32,377 bases of DNA from the NCBI GenBank assembly GCA_027492465.1, contig JAPUET010000039.1:1-32377 (forward strand), in the 5' to 3' direction. The stretch comes from Candidatus Saccharimonadota bacterium (GTDB lineage: Bacteria; Patescibacteriota; Saccharimonadia; Saccharimonadales; Saccharimonadaceae). The position numbers and the translations under genes were made by a program. Shown here piece after piece: positions 1,646-15,530 of the stretch. The notes beneath the pieces were generated by a model. The model worked only from the letters and a program-made list of their open reading frames with translations, had not been told where the DNA came from and ran no database searches. The first letter of the stretch is position 1; every line of letters starts with the position of its first letter.

Positions 1646-3544
1646 TTGGCTAACAAGCTCGTACACACAACAAAGCGCTGGGCAAAAGCCCGCGCACCTC
1701 TACTTTGTACTGCAACCGTACTTTTGCTCACGGTTGCTTTATATGTTTTTGTGTTTATCGTACCAAAGAACCTATCGTTTTCTTTTGCATCGGCAAAAAG
1801 CTGTACAACATTCCCGACACTTCTACCAAATGTCCCTCGCAAAGTGACGTCCGGGGATTATGAACTGAGTGTGCAGGGTGGATGGAAGGTAGGAACTGTT
1901 TGGCTGGTAGGAACAAAGCTCTGCGCACAGCCAACAAAAGAACCTACAAGCGGCGGTATGATCGTCGGTTTTGCGCCATTTGGCGGCTGGCTATTTCGGC
2001 AGATGTTACAGATTAATGTTCCGCCCGAGCCAACAGCACGTAGTACGGGGCTTGATCAGCCAATTCCGACCACAAAACCACTCACAGTGCTACTAAGTTC
2101 GCCCGATTACGTATACACCTACACACTGGCAGTTGGCACAAAGACAGCATCATGTAAGCCGGCCGGTAGCGTGGTGGCGGTGGAGTGCGATACTGCAAGC
2201 CTCGAGTTAGAGCAAGGGCATACGTATGCAATGGAGCTACGACGGAGTTTTGGCTCAGAACCCCCAAAGAGTGTGCTGAAAAAGGCGATCAATACCCTTA
2301 CGGCGACGACGATTGCCGATGGCTCGGTGAAGCAGGGCGAGGTAATCTATGGCCGTCCGACAGAATTTACCTTTACGGCGGATAAAAATGTAAAAAAGGC
2401 GAAAGTGGCTATAAAAACGGGTGATACAGCAGTCGAAGTCGCTACCACTACAGAAGAAAACCGTATCATTGCAACTGTACCCAAAGAATTGGATAGAGAT
2501 AAAGACTACACCTTGGTGATAGACGGCGTAGAGGCCGAAGACGGCAGTACACTGGTGGATCCATATACGATTACCTTTCATATGTCTGGTGGACCGAAAG
2601 TTGTGGCCGTTTCCGTTGGGCATTCTGGAGTTTCGCAAAACGCCACTATAACGATTACATTTGATCAGCCGCTCTCGCCGTCGCAAGATATTACACCATT
2701 TGCTTCTTCGAGCGGGGTATCCTCGCGCCTTACAAAGGGTACCAATAGTATTACATTTGCTTTGCAGGGTACACCCCTTTGCGCCGAGTTTACTCTTTCG
2801 GTAAACAAGGGTGTCGAGAGCGGCGCGGGGGTTCCAGCCAGTAATGGCTGGTCGTACGCGTCGCGTATAACGTGTCACACCGTTTCGACGTACGGCTACT
2901 CGGTTAAGGGCAGGGCGCTTCTCGCATATAATTTTGGCACGAGCGGCCCATTAACTATGTACGTAGGCGCGATTCATGGTAACGAGTCGAGTTCGAGCGG
3001 CATTTTGAAGTCATGGATCGATGACCTTGAAGCTAACCCGAGCTTGTACGGTGGTAAGCGTATTGTTGTGGTGCCATCTATCAATCCCGATGGACTTGCC
3101 GCAAATACCCGAACCAATAGCCGAGGCGTTAATTTAAACCGTAATTTCCCGACCGACGGTTGGACAAAAGATATTAATGATACCGATGGGTATCATGCAG
3201 GTGGGGGCGGGTCTGAACCGCTCTCTGAACCCGAGGCAAAGGCATTAGCCGCACTGACGACTAGTCTGCGACCGCGCTTATTGCTGTCATATCACGCAGT
3301 AGGGAGCCTTGTAACGGGGGACCCTGGCGGCTACTCAGCAGGCTATGCGGCAAAATATGCCTCTATGGTAGGGTACCGCGATGCAACTGGTCAAAGTGGC
3401 ACATTTGACTACGATATCTCTGGCGCCTACGAAGATTGGACGTATTCAAAGCAGGGCATACCGAGTATGGTGCTCGAACTTGGAAGTTACACCTACTATG
3501 ACTTCCGGCATCACCAGGCAGCAATGCGTGCCATGCTAAACTAA
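1646..3544 (+). CDS. Membrane-anchored Ig-like / M14-family zinc carboxypeptidase (632 aa)
   Basis: This is a cell-surface zinc peptidase, probably acting on peptides or peptidoglycan stem peptides. The start is TTG 1646, with GAGG (1632-1635) ten nt upstream; an in-frame TGA at 1631 excludes a longer form. After a basic N-terminus comes one membrane segment (about residues 18-40). A region at about 215-410 resembles two bacterial Ig-like (Big_5/SbsA-type) beta domains. The M14 domain at about 420-632 has HxxE zinc ligands H444 and E447 (IHGNES), NPDG at 480-483, NLNRNFP at 496-502, the third zinc ligand H550 (LLSYH) and the catalytic Glu E611 (VLELGS). The catalytic set is complete, so activity is likely; the substrate is unknown. 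Tandem terminators follow. Confidence 0.85.
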   Translation: MANKLVHTTKRWAKARAPLLCTATVLLLTVALYVFVFIVPKNLSFSFASAKSCTTFPTLLPNVPRKVTSGDYELSVQGGWKVGTVWLVGTKLCAQPTKEPTSGGMIVGFAPFGGWLFRQMLQINVPPEPTARSTGLDQPIPTTKPLTVLLSSPDYVYTYTLAVGTKTASCKPAGSVVAVECDTASLELEQGHTYAMELRRSFGSEPPKSVLKKAINTLTATTIADGSVKQGEVIYGRPTEFTFTADKNVKKAKVAIKTGDTAVEVATTTEENRIIATVPKELDRDKDYTLVIDGVEAEDGSTLVDPYTITFHMSGGPKVVAVSVGHSGVSQNATITITFDQPLSPSQDITPFASSSGVSSRLTKGTNSITFALQGTPLCAEFTLSVNKGVESGAGVPASNGWSYASRITCHTVSTYGYSVKGRALLAYNFGTSGPLTMYVGAIHGNESSSSGILKSWIDDLEANPSLYGGKRIVVVPSINPDGLAANTRTNSRGVNLNRNFPTDGWTKDINDTDGYHAGGGGSEPLSEPEAKALAALTTSLRPRLLLSYHAVGSLVTGDPGGYSAGYAAKYASMVGYRDATGQSGTFDYDISGAYEDWTYSKQGIPSMVLELGSYTYYDFRHHQAAMRAMLN

Positions 3545-7087: not shown

Positions 7088-7114
7088 CAGCCATGTAATT
7101 CATGGATAATTGAT

Positions 7115-7129
7115 CCGGCAAGCTGCCGG
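7115..7129 (+). promoter_or_regulatory. Small hairpin ahead of the infB ribosome site
   Basis: CCGGCA-AGC-TGCCGG forms a compact 6-bp GC-rich hairpin five bases before the AAGGAGA ribosome site of infB. It has no T-tract. It may protect or insulate the downstream message, or set initiation strength. Confidence 0.4.
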
Positions 7130-7145
7130 CAGAAAGGAGAACCAA

Positions 7146-8924
7146 ATGAGTAGCCAAGAGAAGAAAGTTTTGGTAATCGCCGATTCTATCACCGTAGGCG
7201 AACTCGCGGAGACCCTAAACCTGCCGGTTACGCAGCTTGTCGGGGAATTGTTCAAGAACGGTATCGTAGCCACGATCAATCAGCGGATTGATTTTGAAAC
7301 GGCGCAGATCATCGTAGAAGAACTCGGCCTCGAGGTTGAGCTGAAGCGTAAAGAAGTTGAAAAAGCGGTAGTCCAGCGTCTCCACAAGCCGTCTGATAAC
7401 GCTACTGAACGCGCGCCAATCGTTGCTGTGATGGGGCACGTTGACCACGGTAAAACGACACTGCTTGATACGATTTTAGATAAAAAAACGGTATCGGGCG
7501 AGGCTGGCGGTATTACGCAGCATATTAGTGCTTACCAGACTATCCGTAATGGTAGGGCTATTACACTACTCGACACCCCTGGCCACGAAGCGTTTGCGGC
7601 ACTTCGCCAGCATGGTGCAGCGCTCACCGACGTAGTAATTATTGTGGTAGCCGCCGATGATGGCGTGATGCCGCAAACTATAGAAGCAATTCGCTTTGCT
7701 CGTAGTGCCAATGCGCGCATTGTAGTGGCTATCAACAAGATGGACAAAGAAGGCGCTAACCCAGACATGGTAAAGGCGCAACTTGCGAGCGAACATCAGC
7801 TTAACCCCGAAGAATGGGGCGGCGACACCATTATGGTGCCAATTAGCGCCAAGCAAAACGATGGTATTGATAAACTGCTCGATATGGTATTGCTCGTTGC
7901 CGATCTTGAAGAATTACGCGCAGACACCGATGTGCCTGCCGAAGGCTTGGTTATCGAGGCGCACATGGAAAAGGGCAAGGGTTCGGTGGTAAATCTACTA
8001 GTAGAGCAGGGTATGCTAAAACCTGGTCACTTCTTGGTGGCAGGCAGTGCTTACGGTAAGGTACGTACACTACTTGACTTTGCGGGTAAAACCCTCAAAG
8101 AGGCTGGTCCTTCTACGCCTGTTACTGTAACCGGATTCAAAGAGCTACCACAATTTGGTGATGTGTTTACAATTGTTAAAAGTGAAAAAGAAGCCCGTAT
8201 TTTGGTTGAGCGAGCAAAGCTTGAGGCCGAGCGAAACGCGGCAAGTACCAATGTGACAGGCGCCGATTTGCTTAAACTGATGACACAAAAGCATGACAGC
8301 GAGGAAATGAACGTAATTGTAAAAGCTGACGTTCAGGGTTCGCTTACCTCCGTCATGGATAGCCTGCGACTTGTCGATACCAAGGGGCAGATTACCCTTA
8401 GGATCATTGGCAATGGTGTGGGTAATATTAGCGAAAGCGACGTGCGTCTTGCGGCTAGTTCAAACGCGATTATTTACGGCTTTAATATCGAGCTTCCGCC
8501 AGCAGTGAAGCGCCTTGCAATGCGCGACAAAGTACAAATTCGTATTTTCCGAGTGATTTACGAGTTGCTTGATGACGCCCGTCAGAGCATGGAGCAACTC
8601 CTTGCTCCAGAGGTAGTAGAGACTGAAATCGGCAAACTTACCATCAAGGGTGTGTTCCGTACTACCCGCGACGAGGTAATTTGTGGTGGTGAAGTAACAA
8701 GCGGCAAGGCGATGGCTAATGTTCTTGCGCGCATCAAACAGGGTGACGAGCAGATAGCCGAAGTGGAAGTAACAAACGTTCAGCGTCAGCAGCAAGAGGC
8801 CAAAGAGGTATTCGAGGGTGAGATGTGTGGCCTGAGTCTTAAAACGAACAAAAAAATCCTCGTTGAAGAGGGTTACAAGCTCGAATTCTTCACTCGTGCG
8901 CTCGTAAAACGTACCCTAAAGTAG
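7146..8924 (+). CDS. infB: Translation initiation factor IF-2, short form (592 aa)
   Basis: This GTPase brings fMet-tRNA to the P site and promotes subunit joining. In order: a compact IF2_N domain (about 12-65), then the G domain with GHVDHGKT (97-104), GGITQHI (121-127), DTPGH (143-147), NKMD (197-200) and an SAK motif. Domain II contains [19 protein letters not shown]. Domains III and IV end in [17 protein letters not shown]. The long variable N-terminal region of many IF-2 proteins is missing, as in other small genomes. ATG 7146 follows AAGGAGA (7134-7140); the in-frame ATA-led extension to 7110 precedes the ribosome site and is rejected. Confidence 0.97.
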
Positions 8925-9056: not shown

Positions 9057-9365
9057 ATGGACCTCAATACAATTCTCGACAACTATCTGACAGATTTAGT
9101 TCAAGAAAATTTTGGTAATGATTTAACCCCTGAAGAACTTCCTGACGCCAAAGCGGAGCTTCAATCTGCTTTCATGCAGCTGTTTAATTCGCGACTTGTA
9201 GATTCGTTCTCTGACGAAGATCTTGCAGAGGTAGAGGATCTCATTAAGAGCAATCGTATGGAAGAGGTGCCTGCGCTAGCTCAAGCGAAAGGGATAGATC
9301 TTGCTAATCTGGTCCAAAACGTGATGATTGAGTTCCGTGAACTATATAAGGGCGGTAACTCGTAA
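9057..9365 (+). CDS. Small acidic helical protein, similar to the product of 13454-13900 (102 aa)
   Basis: The function is unknown. The protein is acidic and all-helical by appearance, with no membrane segment. The section LPDAKAELQSAFMQLFNSRL, then FSDEDLAEVEDLIKSNR (about 28-67), aligns with LPDDQKKLFLDHFREQLELRV, then LSDAQLEEFESFIDRKD of the 148-aa protein encoded at 13454-13900. The two are probably homologous and may match a Saccharibacteria-type domain of unknown function (DUF5663 from memory, not checked). It starts at ATG 9057 behind AAAGGAAAC and lies 13 nt upstream of the giant gene, almost certainly in the same operon. Confidence 0.7.
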   Translation: MDLNTILDNYLTDLVQENFGNDLTPEELPDAKAELQSAFMQLFNSRLVDSFSDEDLAEVEDLIKSNRMEEVPALAQAKGIDLANLVQNVMIEFRELYKGGNS

Positions 9366-9378
9366 GAGGCGTTCAATC

Positions 9379-12300
9379 ATGAATGAACTACCACCAAGAG
9401 ATGCGGGTAAAGATCTAGCACGGCGCAACGTTGATCTCGCCGTTCCGGGCGATAAGTCTGTAGATACACTTCCTATTCCACCTTCAGCTGAGGTCTTTGA
9501 TCATGCTCTGCAGCAGCACGAGCTAGAGGGTAATCCTTCGCAGCCTCACGACGAGCTTACGGCCGGTTTGCGTCCTAAAGAATTAGAATCTGGTAGGCCT
9601 TCTGAAGAAGATGATAGAATTCAGCTTGTTGTGAGCGGTGTTACCGGTAAGGCTGAGCGACAGTCTGTTTTGGTGTCTGCTGAAAAAGAGTTCGATCGTG
9701 GCTCTGCCGCGAAAGGTGGCCGGTTTAAGAAGTTTCTGCGCAACATCGTTCGTCACGATTTAGGACGTGAATTTTTGATGTTTCGCGGAAGGAAGAAAGC
9801 TCAAGACACTATCGAAGAGACGCATCGTCTCTACGATATGGGCGAAGAAGAGTGGCAGACACTGAGCGCCGAGAGTATCCAGCGAGTTCTTGACGACAGA
9901 CAGGTCGGCGAAATGATGGATATTAATGCCGGTGAAAGCCAAAAGAAACTGGAAACGAACGAGGGACAAGCAATCCGATCAGTCATCAATGGTCTTGTTG
10001 CTGAATACGTTAACAATTACGACGGTAATTATGATACTGACGAAGGTAAGCAGAGCTTGCAGCAAGAAATGCGCCGACAACTTGCAGAACTTGCGAAAGA
10101 TAATCCAGAAGTACAAGGGTTGCTTGGCGAAGGCGAAGCGTACATGTCCAACATTACCGATATTGCCGAAGCAGTACGGCAGCGTGTTGATCATGAGCAT
10201 GGTGTCGATGAGGTATTGAAGAAAGTCGACCTTATTACTGCACGACTCGACCCAGGAGCGCGCACCGTGCTTCGTGAAACTAAAACCACCAAGGCATTTG
10301 ATGCTATAGCTAAGATGGGTGGACTGAATGGCACCGTTATTGCAAGTGGGGCGGCGATACTATATGGCGCCGCTGTTGTTGGCGGAAAATTTGGCCTAAA
10401 ATGGGGTGCCAAGGCTGGTTTAGGTATACCGATCGCTGGTTCTTTGATGGCTGGTGCAATAAGCGCCTTTCAGGAAAAATCCCGACTTGCACATGAATCT
10501 ACTCAGGTGCAAAGAGAAGAAGAGCTTGGGTATAAGGGTGCTAAAGAGACAAAACGCCGAACCGAGCTCAAAGATCTGCTCAATAACATGACCAATGCGA
10601 CTGTCCTAGCAGAAGCATTGCGCCAACACAAACAAGGCGAAGAAGGCAACGAGCAATATGAAGTCTCTGACGCTAATTTCAACGAGCTACTACTCGCGGC
10701 GGTTGGTGCATCGGCGCGACGAGATTTGTCTAGCGAAAAAGAACGAGCATTTGTTTCGTATAGCGGTGAAACAGAAGCAGAAAACGCAGCCGAGCGCCGG
10801 GCGCTATTCCTAGAAACGGTTCGTGCTCGCTCGGCTCTAAGAAGGCACTATGAAACCGAGGGGTTAGCGGGTAAGAACGGCGGCATTGATTTTGATGAAT
10901 TTTACGAAACAAGGAAGTATTCATTCCAAGAATCATTGCTTCGAGAAGCTGCAAATAAAGACGAGCAATATGCAAGCTACAGCACCAAGCGCGCACTCCT
11001 AAAGGGCGCTATGACTACTGGAGCTGGTCTGCTAATAGGGGCTGGTATTTCAGAGGCAAGCTCCTATGTCTCAGATGAAATCAAGGGTCTAGGAGAGGCA
11101 ATTGGTAATACTAATTTTGGCGCATCTGCCAAAACGGTGCTTGCCGCTACCTATGACACTATAAAGAGTCACTTTAGCGCAATCGGCAACATACCACAGG
11201 TAACCTCACCAACATTTGTCGATCACTCCCTCCCAAGTGGCGGCAATCTTCACATTGATGACAAGCTCAATTTTGTCGATCATGGTTCAACCGTTTCGGT
11301 GGAGGGGCCAAATGGAATACATATCGATGGCCTTGAAAAAGATCCAAACGGCACCTTGACTCATGCTGCACAAGATAAGTTAAAGGCTGCAGGTATCCAG
11401 TATGGTGAATCTACTCGTGAAGTGCCGGTAAAAGGTGGCGGCGTAGAACACCAAAAGGTTAACGCCTACGCACGCGAGCATGGTACAAAGGTAGACCGTA
11501 GCTGGTGGGACAATAATACAGGCCGCACCTATGAAGGTTCTCCATATCTTGAGCAGTCCCTTCAGTTGAGTCAAGATGCCAAGGGTAACTTCGTTTATTC
11601 TATGAAGATAAACGAAGATGCTATCGCATTCCACGGAAAAGAGAATGCTAACCTGAAAAGTGGAACATTTAAGATGGCATTCTCGCTAACGAAGGAAAGT
11701 CAGTCGACACCGGTAATAGTAGATATGGAACGTCATGGCGATACCTTGCGGGCCGTCATCAAGCCTAATAATCCATTACATAGTCTTTTTACTGCACATG
11801 AAAACGGTCATGATGCCGACTTTAAGGGTAAATATGCTGAATTGGTACAAAAAATGGGCGATAGGGATCATGATGGACGACTTGATATTCGTGCTCTCGC
11901 GACAGACACCGGTCCTGGTTCGGTAAAAACGCTCGATGTTCCAGCAGATGGTGAAAAACTGGTTGGCGATATGACAATGTATTTGAAAGACGAGCGCATC
12001 ATGCCGCTGGCAGATCTTAGTGACACTGGTGAGCCAATGACACTGTACATTTACCCACCATACCGCACCGGTCTACGCGAAGCTGATAACGAGGAAAGCC
12101 CTCGCGATGGCGTTAATTCTCCGGCGCCAGTTCCGCCAGCGAACAGTGGCGGACCGTCAACAGAGCTTGAAGTGCGACCGCGTTCTGATGAGGTGCCCCC
12201 TCCAACGCTTCCTGCTCAAGACGGCGGCAACGAGGGTGCGCCTCAGGATGAAACTAACAATGTTCGTAACGTGAATTTCACCGATAAGCCATCCAACTTT

Positions 12301-12966
12301 GAAGAAGGTGCACGCCGTATACGGCAGGAGCAGATGGATGCTGAGCGGGAGCGATGGCGGGCAGAAAATGAGCGTCTCCGACAGGAAGCCGAGGCTCGCG
12401 CCGCAGAGAGCGCTCGTCTACGAAAAGAAGCTGAAGACGCGGCAAAGGATGCACGAGAAAAATTAAAAGCGATGTCTGATCGATTCCGTGAGGCTCATGC
12501 TGATGGAGGAGGAACAAACTCACCCCAGCAGAACGGTAGTCCGCGACAGGCCAGGCAGGGCTCTTCTGGGCCCAAGAATGGCAAGACGGAAACTCCCGAG
12601 CAGAGAAAACGCCGTATTGATCAGGAAGAAGGTATACGTGCGAGAGAGAACGGAGCCCCTATACCCGAGGAGCTACAGCATACTGAGGCATATCGTGACG
12701 CCGCAGACAACTTTAATTATGCGAAGGATTCACTTCAATCTGCTAGACAAGAGATGGCCGCAGCTATACGTAAAGGCTTGTCTATAGAGACATTGCAAGA
12801 AATTCAGAGAAAAATCAATAAAGCCGATAAAGATCGCCTGGAAGCAAAGCGTGATATGGCAGATATAAATAGAGGGAAAAATAAAACCGCCAATGCCCAG
12901 GCACGCGCGGCACGTCGAAGGAAGAATAGTGAGGGGTCGAGTCGAGAAACTAAAGCAGCTGCATAG
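9379..12966 (+). CDS. Giant membrane-associated, coiled-coil protein of unknown function (1195 aa)
   Basis: I do not recognise a family. Regions in order: disordered acidic N-terminus (1-110); charged helical region (110-313); Gly/Ala-rich hydrophobic stretch that could hold two membrane helices (314-364); Lys/Glu-rich helical region (365-538); another hydrophobic helix (539-561). Residues about 563-930 look like a mixed or beta extracytoplasmic region with an EF-hand-like loop DRDHDGRLD (828-836). Then come a Pro-rich linker (about 905-960), a long Arg/Glu coiled coil (about 978-1045), and a basic disordered and helical tail. There is no N-terminal signal peptide. ATG 9379 follows AGAGG (9365-9369) by 9 nt; the in-frame extension to 9328 would overlap the upstream gene and lacks a ribosome site. 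A structural or surface-apparatus role is a guess. Confidence 0.75.
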   Translation: MNELPPRDAGKDLARRNVDLAVPGDKSVDTLPIPPSAEVFDHALQQHELEGNPSQPHDELTAGLRPKELESGRPSEEDDRIQLVVSGVTGKAERQSVLVSAEKEFDRGSAAKGGRFKKFLRNIVRHDLGREFLMFRGRKKAQDTIEETHRLYDMGEEEWQTLSAESIQRVLDDRQVGEMMDINAGESQKKLETNEGQAIRSVINGLVAEYVNNYDGNYDTDEGKQSLQQEMRRQLAELAKDNPEVQGLLGEGEAYMSNITDIAEAVRQRVDHEHGVDEVLKKVDLITARLDPGARTVLRETKTTKAFDAIAKMGGLNGTVIASGAAILYGAAVVGGKFGLKWGAKAGLGIPIAGSLMAGAISAFQEKSRLAHESTQVQREEELGYKGAKETKRRTELKDLLNNMTNATVLAEALRQHKQGEEGNEQYEVSDANFNELLLAAVGASARRDLSSEKERAFVSYSGETEAENAAERRALFLETVRARSALRRHYETEGLAGKNGGIDFDEFYETRKYSFQESLLREAANKDEQYASYSTKRALLKGAMTTGAGLLIGAGISEASSYVSDEIKGLGEAIGNTNFGASAKTVLAATYDTIKSHFSAIGNIPQVTSPTFVDHSLPSGGNLHIDDKLNFVDHGSTVSVEGPNGIHIDGLEKDPNGTLTHAAQDKLKAAGIQYGESTREVPVKGGGVEHQKVNAYAREHGTKVDRSWWDNNTGRTYEGSPYLEQSLQLSQDAKGNFVYSMKINEDAIAFHGKENANLKSGTFKMAFSLTKESQSTPVIVDMERHGDTLRAVIKPNNPLHSLFTAHENGHDADFKGKYAELVQKMGDRDHDGRLDIRALATDTGPGSVKTLDVPADGEKLVGDMTMYLKDERIMPLADLSDTGEPMTLYIYPPYRTGLREADNEESPRDGVNSPAPVPPANSGGPSTELEVRPRSDEVPPPTLPAQDGGNEGAPQDETNNVRNVNFTDKPSNFEEGARRIRQEQMDAERERWRAENERLRQEAEARAAESARLRKEAEDAAKDAREKLKAMSDRFREAHADGGGTNSPQQNGSPRQARQGSSGPKNGKTETPEQRKRRIDQEEGIRARENGAPIPEELQHTEAYRDAADNFNYAKDSLQSARQEMAAAIRKGLSIETLQEIQRKINKADKDRLEAKRDMADINRGKNKTANAQARAARRRKNSEGSSRETKAAA

Positions 12967-12985
12967 GTAGCAGCTGCTTTAGTTT
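12947..12985 (+). terminator. Terminator overlapping the giant gene's stop codon
   Basis: A perfect 16-bp stem, AAACTAAAGCAGCTGC (12947-12962) with GCAGCTGCTTTAGTTT (12970-12985), has the TAG stop (12964-12966) in its 7-nt loop. The 3' arm ends TTTAGTTTT, giving a modest U-tract. The last residues of the protein (ETKAAA) are encoded by the left arm. Confidence 0.75.
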
Positions 12986-13009
12986 TGGTGTCTAAAAAAG
13001 TCAGGCCTA

Positions 13010-13321
13010 CTATACGCTTTTAATTTCTGCGTATTCCACCTCGTCGATAAGTTCTGAGAGGGCACTTGCACGTGAGCTTTGGTCTTCAATCACTAGAGCG
13101 GCTTCAAGAGCGTCTTCTGCGGATTGTGCATTGCCGGAATCGCGCATGGCTGACATATAAATGTCGAATCGTTTTTCAGGACTAAACTCGTTTGCTTGCT
13201 GTACAAGGGGGAGCAAACTTTCTAACGCACGCGCCTTTACTTCAGCAAGGCGTGAAGCATTACTATTATTATCATTATTATTGTCAGCAACTTGTTGGTT
13301 ATTGCTCTGATCGTCGTCCAT
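13010..13321 (-). CDS. Small acidic protein with Asn-rich N-terminus (103 aa)
   Basis: The function is unknown. After MDDDQ comes an Asn/Gln/Asp-rich stretch (about 5-24), then a helical acidic domain (VKARALESLLPLVQQANEFS onward, ending DEVEYAEIKSV) without a membrane segment. The start chosen is ATG 13321, with AAGGAG (13334-13339 on the minus strand) 12 nt upstream; a GTG at 13333 abuts the ribosome site and is too close. A minus-strand promoter with -35 TGGACA (13380-13375) and -10 TATTAT (13356-13351) fits. It converges on the giant gene and diverges from 13454. Confidence 0.65.
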   Translation of the reverse strand: MDDDQSNNQQVADNNNDNNSNASRLAEVKARALESLLPLVQQANEFSPEKRFDIYMSAMRDSGNAQSAEDALEAALVIEDQSSRASALSELIDEVEYAEIKSV

Positions 13322-13350
13322 TATATTTCCCACTCCTTTATCTTATATGT

Positions 13351-13412
13351 ATAATACAGCATAAGCCAGACGGGTGTCCATATTTGATATGTTATCGGAT
13401 GGGACGTATAAT
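13351..13412. promoter_or_regulatory. Back-to-back divergent promoters
   Basis: Plus strand: -35 TTGATA (13384-13389), 17-nt spacer, -10 TATAAT (13407-13412). Minus strand: -35 TGGACA (13380-13375), 18-nt spacer, -10 TATTAT (13356-13351). The two -35 boxes are only 3 bp apart, so the genes at 13010-13321 and 13454-13900 could be co-regulated. Confidence 0.6.
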
Positions 13413-13453
13413 ATACTAGAAGATCAGAATAGTTACACTAAGTAAGGACAGAT

Positions 13454-13900
13454 ATGTTTCAGTTAGATGATAAATTTTTGCAAGATGTGGGCCTGGGCGG
13501 GTTGCCCGACGACCAAAAGAAGCTATTTTTAGACCATTTTAGGGAGCAGCTTGAGCTTCGTGTGGGTACGAAGCTGAGCGAAGGCCTCAGTGATGCGCAA
13601 CTTGAAGAGTTTGAGAGCTTTATCGACCGCAAAGATGACCGAGTTAACGCATGGCTGGCGGCAAACGTGCCAAATTACGAAGAAGATACTATTTACCAGC
13701 AGCTGAAGGCTGGTGCGCCAGAGCAGATTCCGCAAAATGTTGTTCTAGCGGAGTATGCGAGTCTTAAATGGCTTGGCCTAAACCGACCAGATTATAAAGA
13801 TGTCGTAACTACTACAATGAACGAGCTTAAGGCTGAAATTATTGCTAATCGCGACGCGATTCTTGGTGTCGACTCCGGCGCGCAGGCTCCAGCAGCCTAA
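13454..13900 (+). CDS. Acidic helical protein, similar to the product of 9057-9365 (148 aa)
   Basis: The function is unknown. The product is soluble and acidic with no membrane segment. Residues about 17-65 (GLPDDQKKLFLDHFREQLEL, then LSDAQLEEFESFIDRKD) resemble the core of the 102-aa protein at 9057-9365. The C-terminal half (from about residue 75) is an extra helical domain ending in an Ala/Pro-rich tail, GAQAPAA. It possibly belongs to a Saccharibacteria-type DUF (DUF5663 from memory). ATG 13454 follows AAGGA (13443-13447). Its TAA stop (13898-13900) coincides with the target duplication of the palindromic element that follows. Confidence 0.7.
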   Translation: MFQLDDKFLQDVGLGGLPDDQKKLFLDHFREQLELRVGTKLSEGLSDAQLEEFESFIDRKDDRVNAWLAANVPNYEEDTIYQQLKAGAPEQIPQNVVLAEYASLKWLGLNRPDYKDVVTTTMNELKAEIIANRDAILGVDSGAQAPAA

Positions 13901-14063
13901 GAACCTGTTCCAAATCTCCAATATCGCCGAAATTTCCCGATGCCGAGGCAGATTACATTAAGGGCGACAAGAGGTAGCCGTAGCTACATCGCGGAGTCAT
14001 GGATGTAATATGACCGGAATTCGGGTGATTTTTAGGCTGAATTCGGAGATTTGGAACAGGTTC
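13901..14063. mobile_element. MITE-like near-palindromic element with TAA target duplication
   Basis: Perfect 19-bp terminal inverted repeats, GAACCTGTTCCAAATCTCC (13901-13919) and its reverse complement (14045-14063), are flanked on both sides by TAA (13898-13900 and 14064-14066). The interior is an imperfect palindrome too: ATTACAT (13952-13958) pairs with ATGTAAT (14003-14009), and GTAGC-CGTA-GCTAC (13974-13987) forms the apex near 13980.5. It has no ORF. Size, terminal repeats and a 3-bp duplication fit a non-autonomous element mobilised by an IS5-like transposase; that attribution is inference. As RNA it would be a long hairpin and may terminate transcription from both flanking genes. 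Confidence 0.7.
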
Positions 14064-14080
14064 TAAGTAAAGAGTGTAGA

Positions 14081-14986
14081 CTAAAGTGAGTGCCCGCGTA
14101 AGAATTCGGCGGCGCTCATTTTTTTGCCGCTTGGGGCAATAACTTCGTCGATGGCGAGAAAGGCACCATTGGCACACTCAAGATCAAGCGGGGATTCTTT
14201 CGTCATTACTCCGTGGGCTTTTGTGACGATAAGATTATATGGCCCTACGCTAATACGTGAGCGCGGAAAGCCCAGGTAGGCACGCACATGAGCTTCAGCT
14301 TCACCAGGGGTAAGTTGTGTGAGATCAAGGTTGCCCATGTCTTTTGTGAGTAGCGAGCAGTACGTCGCATCAGCCTCACTTTGCGGGGTGGGCTGCAGGC
14401 CTCCCGTGATGATTTCTGGCAATTTTGCTACGAGTAAGTTTGCCCCCAGCGTGAATAGCGTATTGTAAAGCTCTTGCTTGGTTTCGGTATAGTCGAGCGC
14501 ATAGGGGGCTTGTAGGTATATTGGCCCGGCATCCATGGCTTTATCGAGTAGCATAACTGATACGCCAGTTTTATTGTCTCGATGTAAAATAGCCGATTCA
14601 ATTGGGGACGGACCACGATACTGTGGCAGCAGAGAAGGGTGTATATTAATAATACCAGGCGTGAAAAGCTGCAAAACAGCTTCCGGGATAATCTTACCAA
14701 AGCTCACGAGCACACCAACAGGAGAGTCGAGGTTTTGAACAGTCGGAGCGATATCTTTTATCTTTTCTGGCTGCAGCACAGGAATGCCTTGCTCTATACC
14801 ATATGTCTTCACCGCGGGAAAAGTAAGTTTCTTGCCCCGGCCTTTTACCGTATCGGGCTTTGTTATGATCGTGGCGACCTGGAATCCAGCCTCAACGAGT
14901 GCGCGCAGCGCTAATAAGCTATGATCTTCGGTCCCAAAGAAAACAATTGGTCGGTTAGTCCCAGAGGTCGTGGTTGTCTTTGACAT
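14081..14986 (-). CDS. fmt: Methionyl-tRNA formyltransferase (301 aa)
   Basis: Transfers a formyl group from 10-formyl-THF to Met-tRNA(fMet). The N-terminal Rossmann-like domain opens RPIVFFGTEDHSLLALRAL. The catalytic triad is visible: N114 and H116 in IINIHPSLLPQYRGPSPIESAI, and D152 in LLDKAMDAGPI. The C-terminal OB-type domain (about 205-301) is present, and the length is normal. ATG 14986 was chosen; ATG 14995 and TTG 15010 are in-frame alternatives and none has a clear Shine-Dalgarno. The gene overlaps the end of def by 32 nt, giving the usual def-fmt pair downstream of priA. The palindromic element at 13901-14063 lies just beyond its stop. Confidence 0.93.
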   Translation of the reverse strand: MSKTTTTSGTNRPIVFFGTEDHSLLALRALVEAGFQVATIITKPDTVKGRGKKLTFPAVKTYGIEQGIPVLQPEKIKDIAPTVQNLDSPVGVLVSFGKIIPEAVLQLFTPGIINIHPSLLPQYRGPSPIESAILHRDNKTGVSVMLLDKAMDAGPIYLQAPYALDYTETKQELYNTLFTLGANLLVAKLPEIITGGLQPTPQSEADATYCSLLTKDMGNLDLTQLTPGEAEAHVRAYLGFPRSRISVGPYNLIVTKAHGVMTKESPLDLECANGAFLAIDEVIAPSGKKMSAAEFLRGHSL

Positions 14987-15530
14987 AGGTGTCATAGTCG
15001 AGTGGATCAAGCTCGCCTTTATCGTTTAAGCGGTAAAATGCGTCGTGTTGATCGCGAATATGGTCGATAAAAACTACGCCGTTTGTATGATCAATTTCGT
15101 GCTGGAGTACGCGCGCCAAGAAGCCTTCGGCTTTAATACGCACTTCATTGCCGCTAATATCGAGTGCCTTGATACGCACCTTGCTAAAGCGAGGCACTTT
15201 GCCATAAAAGCCGTTTACACTAAGACAACCCTCGTAATCGGTGATCATAGGACCTTCGCCCTTCACGATTTCGGGATTAATAAGCGGGATGAATTCTTGA
15301 ATCGCCTTATCGTCAAAGTCGCTTCGTACAATGACAACACGATCTAGACGATCGATTTGTACGGCTGCAAGGGCTGCGCTGATCTCGTGAGGGCGTGAAT
15401 TTTCCCAGTCGAGGCTGGCATCGGTCATGTCTTTTATAAGCTGCAAGATGTCATCTGTGACGACATGCACGCGGTTAGACCTCTGCCGTAGGTGTGTATT
15501 TGGCAAGGTTATAATATCTTCTTTTTTCAT
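14955..15530 (-). CDS. def: Peptide deformylase (191 aa)
   Basis: Removes the formyl group from nascent proteins, using a metal held by C102, H144 and H148. Motif II, EGCLS, is at 100-104. Motif III, HEIDH, is at 144-148 with catalytic E145. Motif I, normally GxGLAAxQ, reads SAALAAVQ (51-58): both glycines are replaced but the substrate-binding Gln (Q58) is kept. ATG 15530 has no Shine-Dalgarno; a minus-strand -10 TATAAT (15544-15539) sits 8 nt upstream, so a leaderless transcript is likely, independent of read-through from priA. It forms a natural pair with the overlapping fmt. Confidence 0.92.
   Translation of the reverse strand: MKKEDIITLPNTHLRQRSNRVHVVTDDILQLIKDMTDASLDWENSRPHEISAALAAVQIDRLDRVVIVRSDFDDKAIQEFIPLINPEIVKGEGPMITDYEGCLSVNGFYGKVPRFSKVRIKALDISGNEVRIKAEGFLARVLQHEIDHTNGVVFIDHIRDQHDAFYRLNDKGELDPLDYDTYVKDNHDLWD

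Follow-up and report, generated by a model that had tools for sequence, protein, structure and literature searches.

Saccharibacteria are tiny parasitic bacteria whose recognition and binding of their host bacteria is only partly understood, with roles suggested for type IV pili, for adhesins and for a type IV secretion system (T4SS). The window analysed here, a 32,377 nt stretch of Saccharibacterial DNA, contains between infB and fmt a gene for a giant protein of 1195 amino acids together with genes for three small proteins. A preliminary description had tentatively regarded these four genes as one clade-specific module, in which a membrane protein is bracketed by two related small partners. 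The locus raises the question of which of the four products belong together, what kind of protein the giant is, and what such a block could do at this position.

Gene products and borders of the block

The four coding sequences were re-derived, and their coordinates agreed with the preliminary description. With its borders, the block is composed as follows.

7110–8924, + strand: infB (IF-2), left border of the slot
9057–9365, + strand: small1 (P0001), 102 aa, pI 4.05, DUF5663-related small protein, 13 bp 5′ of the giant gene
9379–12966, + strand: giant (P0002), ATG start, 1195 aa, without a GT2 domain
13010–13321, − strand: small3 (P0003), 103 aa, acidic
13351–13412, no strand: divergent promoter-like sites in the P0003/P0004 intergenic region, consensus match only
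13454–13900, + strand: P0004, 148 aa, DUF5663 (PF18908), resident of the infB–fmt slot
14081–15010, − strand: fmt, right border of the slot

With an alternative TTG start at 9328, the giant would comprise 1212 aa. The small3 product was acidic (pI 4.06) and had an Asn-rich N-terminus, as originally noticed. Of the 11 giant loci examined first, window included, 8 had a member of the small3 family beside the giant, in either orientation. Divergent −35/−10 matches (TTGATA-17-TATAAT on the plus strand, TGGACA-18-TATTAT on the minus strand) were present between P0003 and P0004, where a head-to-head promoter had been proposed, but the region as a whole contained 6 promoter-like sites against 6.4 in shuffled sequences, i.e. 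no excess.

Between P0004 and fmt, a 171-bp palindrome (13897–14067) was identified, with 23-nt arms that are 96% complementary. The whole element folds as RNA at approximately −80 kcal/mol (z −7.4), and its arm has a single occurrence in the genome, which rules out an abundant repeat. It may be a terminator-like structure acting in both directions or the relic of a mobile element. Elsewhere in the window (1646–3544), a 632-aa protein is encoded beside the rRNA genes whose C-terminal domain (residues 412–624) is that of a zinc carboxypeptidase (Peptidase_M14).

P0004 was assigned by Pfam to DUF5663 (61.7 bits against a curated cut-off of 23.7, E 1.1e-16), a family for which no published function was found in the literature searched. 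P0001 itself returned no Pfam match and stayed below the DUF5663 cut-off, and direct BLASTP of P0001 against P0004 gave nothing significant (E 0.65). Several P0001 homologues gave sub-threshold matches to DUF5663 (E 3e-4 to 0.01). When the family alignments of P0001 (A2) and P0004 (A3), built from homologues in relatives, were compared as profiles by hhalign, 72 columns were aligned with 92% probability and an E-value of 5.8e-7, while the P0003 family profile, used as control against the other two small families, gave 0.1–0.3% and thus no relation. The two small proteins are accordingly related, as had been supposed, and the profile similarity between them is clear. Judged from these alignments, P0001 is a diverged cousin of DUF5663, related to but outside the Pfam family. 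The shared motif from which the relationship was first suspected stood in one half: the FSDxDLxExExxI/LSDxQLxExExxI core (SDxxLxExE) is in register in the profile alignment, but the LPD motif is approximately 5–6 residues out of register and is a coincidence. P0001, the giant and P0003 had no relatives of note in Pfam, NCBIfam, PHROGs or PDB.

The small1–giant pair and the occupants of the slot

Among 96 compared giant loci of the family, 85 had small1 as a same-strand gene upstream of the giant; the other 11 had no small1 match on that contig in the compared list, probably owing to contig breaks in several cases. The coding gap was mostly 1–20 bp where measured; it amounts to 13 bp in the window, and two other loci had gaps of 40 and 83 bp. 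The two genes were also found side by side when 120 relatives were searched with each protein. The genomic contexts of the pair vary widely, so the linkage does not follow from inherited synteny alone. Small1 and the giant are a real, near-obligate pair and not homologues scattered without linkage.

The giant profile matched in 103 of 394 family genomes, a few of which had free-standing GT-domain proteins only, and small1 was found in 195 of the 394; the surplus of small1 matches may be due to giants too diverged to detect. Giants were present in other families of the order too. Peptide patterns of the giant gave nothing among named genome contigs, and TM7i and five other named genomes returned no giant or small1 match, in a set that had no positive control and so shows little. 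The block is Saccharibacterial, which agrees with the proposed clade specificity: P0004 relatives are encoded on 53 named contigs, the majority of them under Saccharibacteria or Patescibacteria names. In one genome (G144, L068:542-9010), two small1–giant pairs were found in tandem on one strand.

The gene order S1-infB-small1-giant-small3-DUF5663-fmt-def-priA was shared by several relatives. Within the window's genus, P0004 orthologues were present in all 13 genomes, and the giant in only two (G000 and G004), so small1, the giant, P0003 and P0004 were rejected as one four-gene module. Ten of the 13 genomes had a different large protein (476–885 aa) at the place of the giant, often with a second adjoining DUF5663 gene, and in G007 the slot had no large protein and kept P0004. 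What stood of the module is that small1 goes wherever the giant is; P0004, by contrast, stays between infB and fmt with or without it.

A P0004-type gene was resident in the infB–fmt interval at 50 named loci, mostly of Saccharibacteria and TM7i included. At 27 of these the slot was empty, at 21 it contained a same-strand protein of at least 300 aa (one being the giant), and at two an opposite-strand gene only. One slot counted among the 27 (L163) has a small1–giant pair on the other side of DUF5663, and in the complete TM7i chromosome the slot is filled by proteins of 616 and 281 aa. At E 1e-4, the slot proteins clustered into three groups, of which the largest (group 1) was heterogeneous, and four singletons; this ruled out that all of them form one family. 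A common design was seen in many: a charged N-terminal part precedes a hydrophobic stretch that is rich in Gly/Ala and has positive charge on its flanks; another hydrophobic helix often comes next, and the protein ends in a short C-terminal domain. P0004 shows no specificity for the giant, which is itself just one of the unrelated large proteins that can fill the slot. The idea of bracketing by two small partners is retained only in that the two are related; they are not equivalent.

The DUF5663 paralogue subfamilies sorted by the class of the adjoining large protein. One was associated with L129/L130/L131, one with L126/L128/L143 and one mostly with basic coiled-coil proteins, while small1 with the giants and the resident P0004 formed further groups. 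In G007, the genome whose own slot lacks a large protein, an L131-type 721-aa slot-type protein is located elsewhere and is followed by an L131-type DUF5663; this pair has moved together. The pI of all small partner proteins was 4.05–4.5. The DUF5663-type small proteins would be cognate partners of the adjoining large proteins. Further DUF5663 copies (L024:4770-5977, L029:9257-10538, L136, L137, L140, L142) adjoin basic coiled-coil-like proteins of 278–438 aa (pI 8.6–10.8) with no convincing Pfam match, and these may be further partner pairs.

Between the window and G004, sequence identity was 91% for S1, 80% for IF-2, 78% for P0004, 75% for def, and 61% for both priA and fmt, in comparison to 28% for the giant, 18% for small1 and 22% for small3. 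In three between-genus pairs, the giants were 34–45% and small1 37–55% identical, and the window giant was the most divergent member among those analysed. The divergence from G004 indicates that the window pair has either evolved exceptionally fast or is a replaced cassette. One fixed locus has a large product that varies even among species of the same genus, next to genes that are 61–97% identical between the window and G004, and such a pattern is expected of contact or conflict genes.

Anatomy of the giant and its variable C-terminus

The AlphaFold model of the window giant (pLDDT 69, pTM 0.49) consists of a helical N-terminal domain (residues 81–300), hairpin helices (318–346 and 351–382, with low confidence at about 314–351), a helical region (385–505), a long helix (505–564), a beta domain (613–862), a disordered Pro-rich acidic linker (863–973), and a basic helical/coiled-coil part (974–1195). 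The hydrophobic hairpin covers approximately residues 316–382, and the third hydrophobic helix approximately residues 536–564. The corresponding features of the window are listed below.

10324–10470, + strand: hydrophobic segments 1 and 2 (Gly/Ala-rich hairpin), residues 316–364
10993–11049, + strand: hydrophobic segment 3, residues 539–557, with positive charge ahead of it and negative charge behind it, a pattern shared by most relatives
11215–11964, + strand: conserved beta domain, residues 613–862, weakly Ig/CBM48-like (Z about 4)
11965–12963, + strand: Pro-rich linker and coiled-coil tail, residues 863–1195, where many relatives have a GT2-fold domain

The three hydrophobic segments (residues 316–334, 346–364 and 539–557) are Gly/Ala-rich and have corresponding places in relatives, which makes the suggested membrane protein plausible. 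They are weakly hydrophobic (mean Kyte-Doolittle 1.2–2.2) and might be buried instead of membrane-spanning. In most relatives, segment 3 is preceded by net positive and followed by mostly negative or neutral charge, and under the positive-inside rule this bias would place the C-terminal part of the giant outside. A fold search with the whole-length giant, in which the domains were taken together and not singly, returned coiled-coil matches and the weak Ig/CBM48-like match only, so that its single domains may yet have a known fold. Pfam and NCBIfam revealed no known adhesin, anchor or signal domain in the giant, and neither sequence search of these, PHROGs and PDB nor comparison with phages and plasmids provided it with a home.

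A C-terminal glycosyltransferase domain of GT-A/GT2 fold was predicted in 15 of the 32 giants examined. The model of this domain from L025 (pLDDT 85.6, pTM 0.86) matched 6p61 (Z 18.6, rmsd 2.7 over 187 residues), WrtF (Z 18.3), and RmlT, TarS and TarP (Z about 17), and by sequence alone the match was weak (best Pfam E 4e-4). D141 and D143 of the DxD motif and D247, the second D of (E/D)D, were invariant in the 15 sequences. The GT profile had no match in the window giant, which is modelled there as disordered linker and coiled coil, and the other GT-less giants had mostly Pro-rich or helical tails. In a tree built from the N-terminal core, two to three changes of the GT state were seen, one of them between L029 (GT) and L075 (no GT), which are sisters with 100% support. 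The window branch was the longest and its exact placement is unsure; its position among GT-bearing rows, together with the presence of the domain in G004 of the same genus, suggests that the domain was lost here. Free-standing homologues of the GT2-fold domain (L083, L084, L085, L086; approximately 410–490 aa), sharing an IPVAAxQ-type start, were found elsewhere in the family. By eye, a recurring short helical unit (AWN/RWN...GDY...L..YGI) was seen after the Pro-rich linkers in the GT-less giants L063-L066, L069, L076, L081 and L082, and it may be a new small domain.

Possible roles and relation to known systems

We tentatively favour, at a chance close to even, that the giant is an exchangeable protein of the envelope, that it has three hydrophobic segments and ends in a variable exoplasmic part, and that small1 is its dedicated acidic partner. 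The infB–fmt slot of Saccharibacteria would be a fixed site holding an exchangeable surface-protein cassette, and the window block one version of it. The alpha-helical N-terminal half would be cytoplasmic, followed by the Gly-rich hairpin, and the third helix would cross the membrane, which puts the beta domain and the variable C-terminal module on the exoplasmic side. Small1, translated just ahead of the giant, would most likely bind its cytoplasmic helical region and serve as a chaperone or subunit, either keeping the hydrophobic helices soluble or aiding assembly. The C-terminal module would be the diversifying part, with a GT2 fold in many lineages and Pro-rich or helical tails in others and the window, presumably selected through its contact with the host bacterium; both this contact and the surface exposure of the giant we infer. 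The small1–giant pair in its variable slot suggests a swappable cell-surface system, undescribed so far. Against the envelope cassette count the failure to find a known adhesin, anchor or signal domain, the weak hydrophobicity of the three segments and the presence of the giant in only 2 of the 13 genus genomes. Moreover, a GT2 domain that looks catalytically intact would be without nucleotide sugar outside the cell, so the C-terminus of the GT-bearing relatives may face the cytoplasm.

The GT domain is better accounted for if the giant serves an envelope glycan as a glycosyltransferase scaffold, tethered to the membrane and facing the cytoplasm, with small1 as a regulatory or structural subunit and the window copy as a derived GT-less pseudo-enzyme kept for scaffolding. 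The invariant DxD and conserved (E/D)D of the relatives, a fold nearest to glycan and teichoic-acid transferases that use cytosolic nucleotide sugars, and the weakly CBM48/Ig-like beta domain are all in its favour. We consider it unlikely, however, since the charge around segment 3 would place the C-terminus outside, many homologues are devoid of the GT domain, and fast divergence and swapping would be odd for a biosynthetic enzyme.

Delivery of the giant as an effector into the host bacterium, with small1 as cognate chaperone and the GT2 and other C-terminal modules as payloads, would explain the gene for a small acidic partner directly upstream, the hydrophobic segments, which would need masking, and the swappable modules, and a T4SS is essential in the related epibiont Southlakia epibionticum (PMC10633639). 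Yet neither secretion nor immunity genes were recognised in the neighbourhoods examined (infB, fmt, ABC transporter, S1, AMP-ligase, FemAB), no known secretion signal came to light, and the window copy has no recognisable catalytic domain, which leaves this role improbable. That small1 and the giant are mere operon neighbours without physical partnership, P0001/DUF5663 being a general regulator, would suit the DUF5663 genes in slots without a large neighbour and the unequal family counts, but is improbable in view of the linkage across unrelated contexts and the partner-specific DUF5663 subfamilies.

Extending the exchangeable envelope protein to the other slot occupants, DUF5663-type proteins could be a family of cognate partners, each for another class of large exchanged envelope protein, with the slot as a hypervariable host-contact determinant and the pair setting host range or contact specificity. 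This wider proposal is doubtful, and it is the putative partnership with large proteins that gives DUF5663 a first testable role. In reference to Pfam, P0004 is a member of PF18908, and P0001, itself without a match, is connected to it through its family profile.

Effector–chaperone pairs, such as those of T6SS Eag and the T7SS small partner proteins, have the small partner encoded just upstream of the large protein. The giant resembles them as a large protein with hydrophobic segments, a variable C-terminus and a small partner just upstream, and differs in that no sequence similarity was found and no secretion genes were recognised nearby. The C-terminal domain of many relatives is in turn like GT2/GT-A glycosyltransferases (6p61, WrtF, TarS/TarP, RmlT, hyaluronan synthase) in its predicted fold and in its DxD and ED motifs, but unlike in these known enzymes it is fused to a three-segment membrane protein, and the window giant has no such domain. 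As a putative envelope protein that is variable and has possible host contact, the giant is comparable to the product of vaa, a polymorphic surface-protein locus of Mycoplasma hominis (PMC524362), and as a very large one to the giant CPR surface proteins of Absconditicoccaceae (PMC13059738), for which host contact is likewise possible. Unlike in both, no known adhesin domains were found here, and the variable protein occupies a fixed slot flanked by housekeeping genes, together with a putatively cognate small acidic partner.
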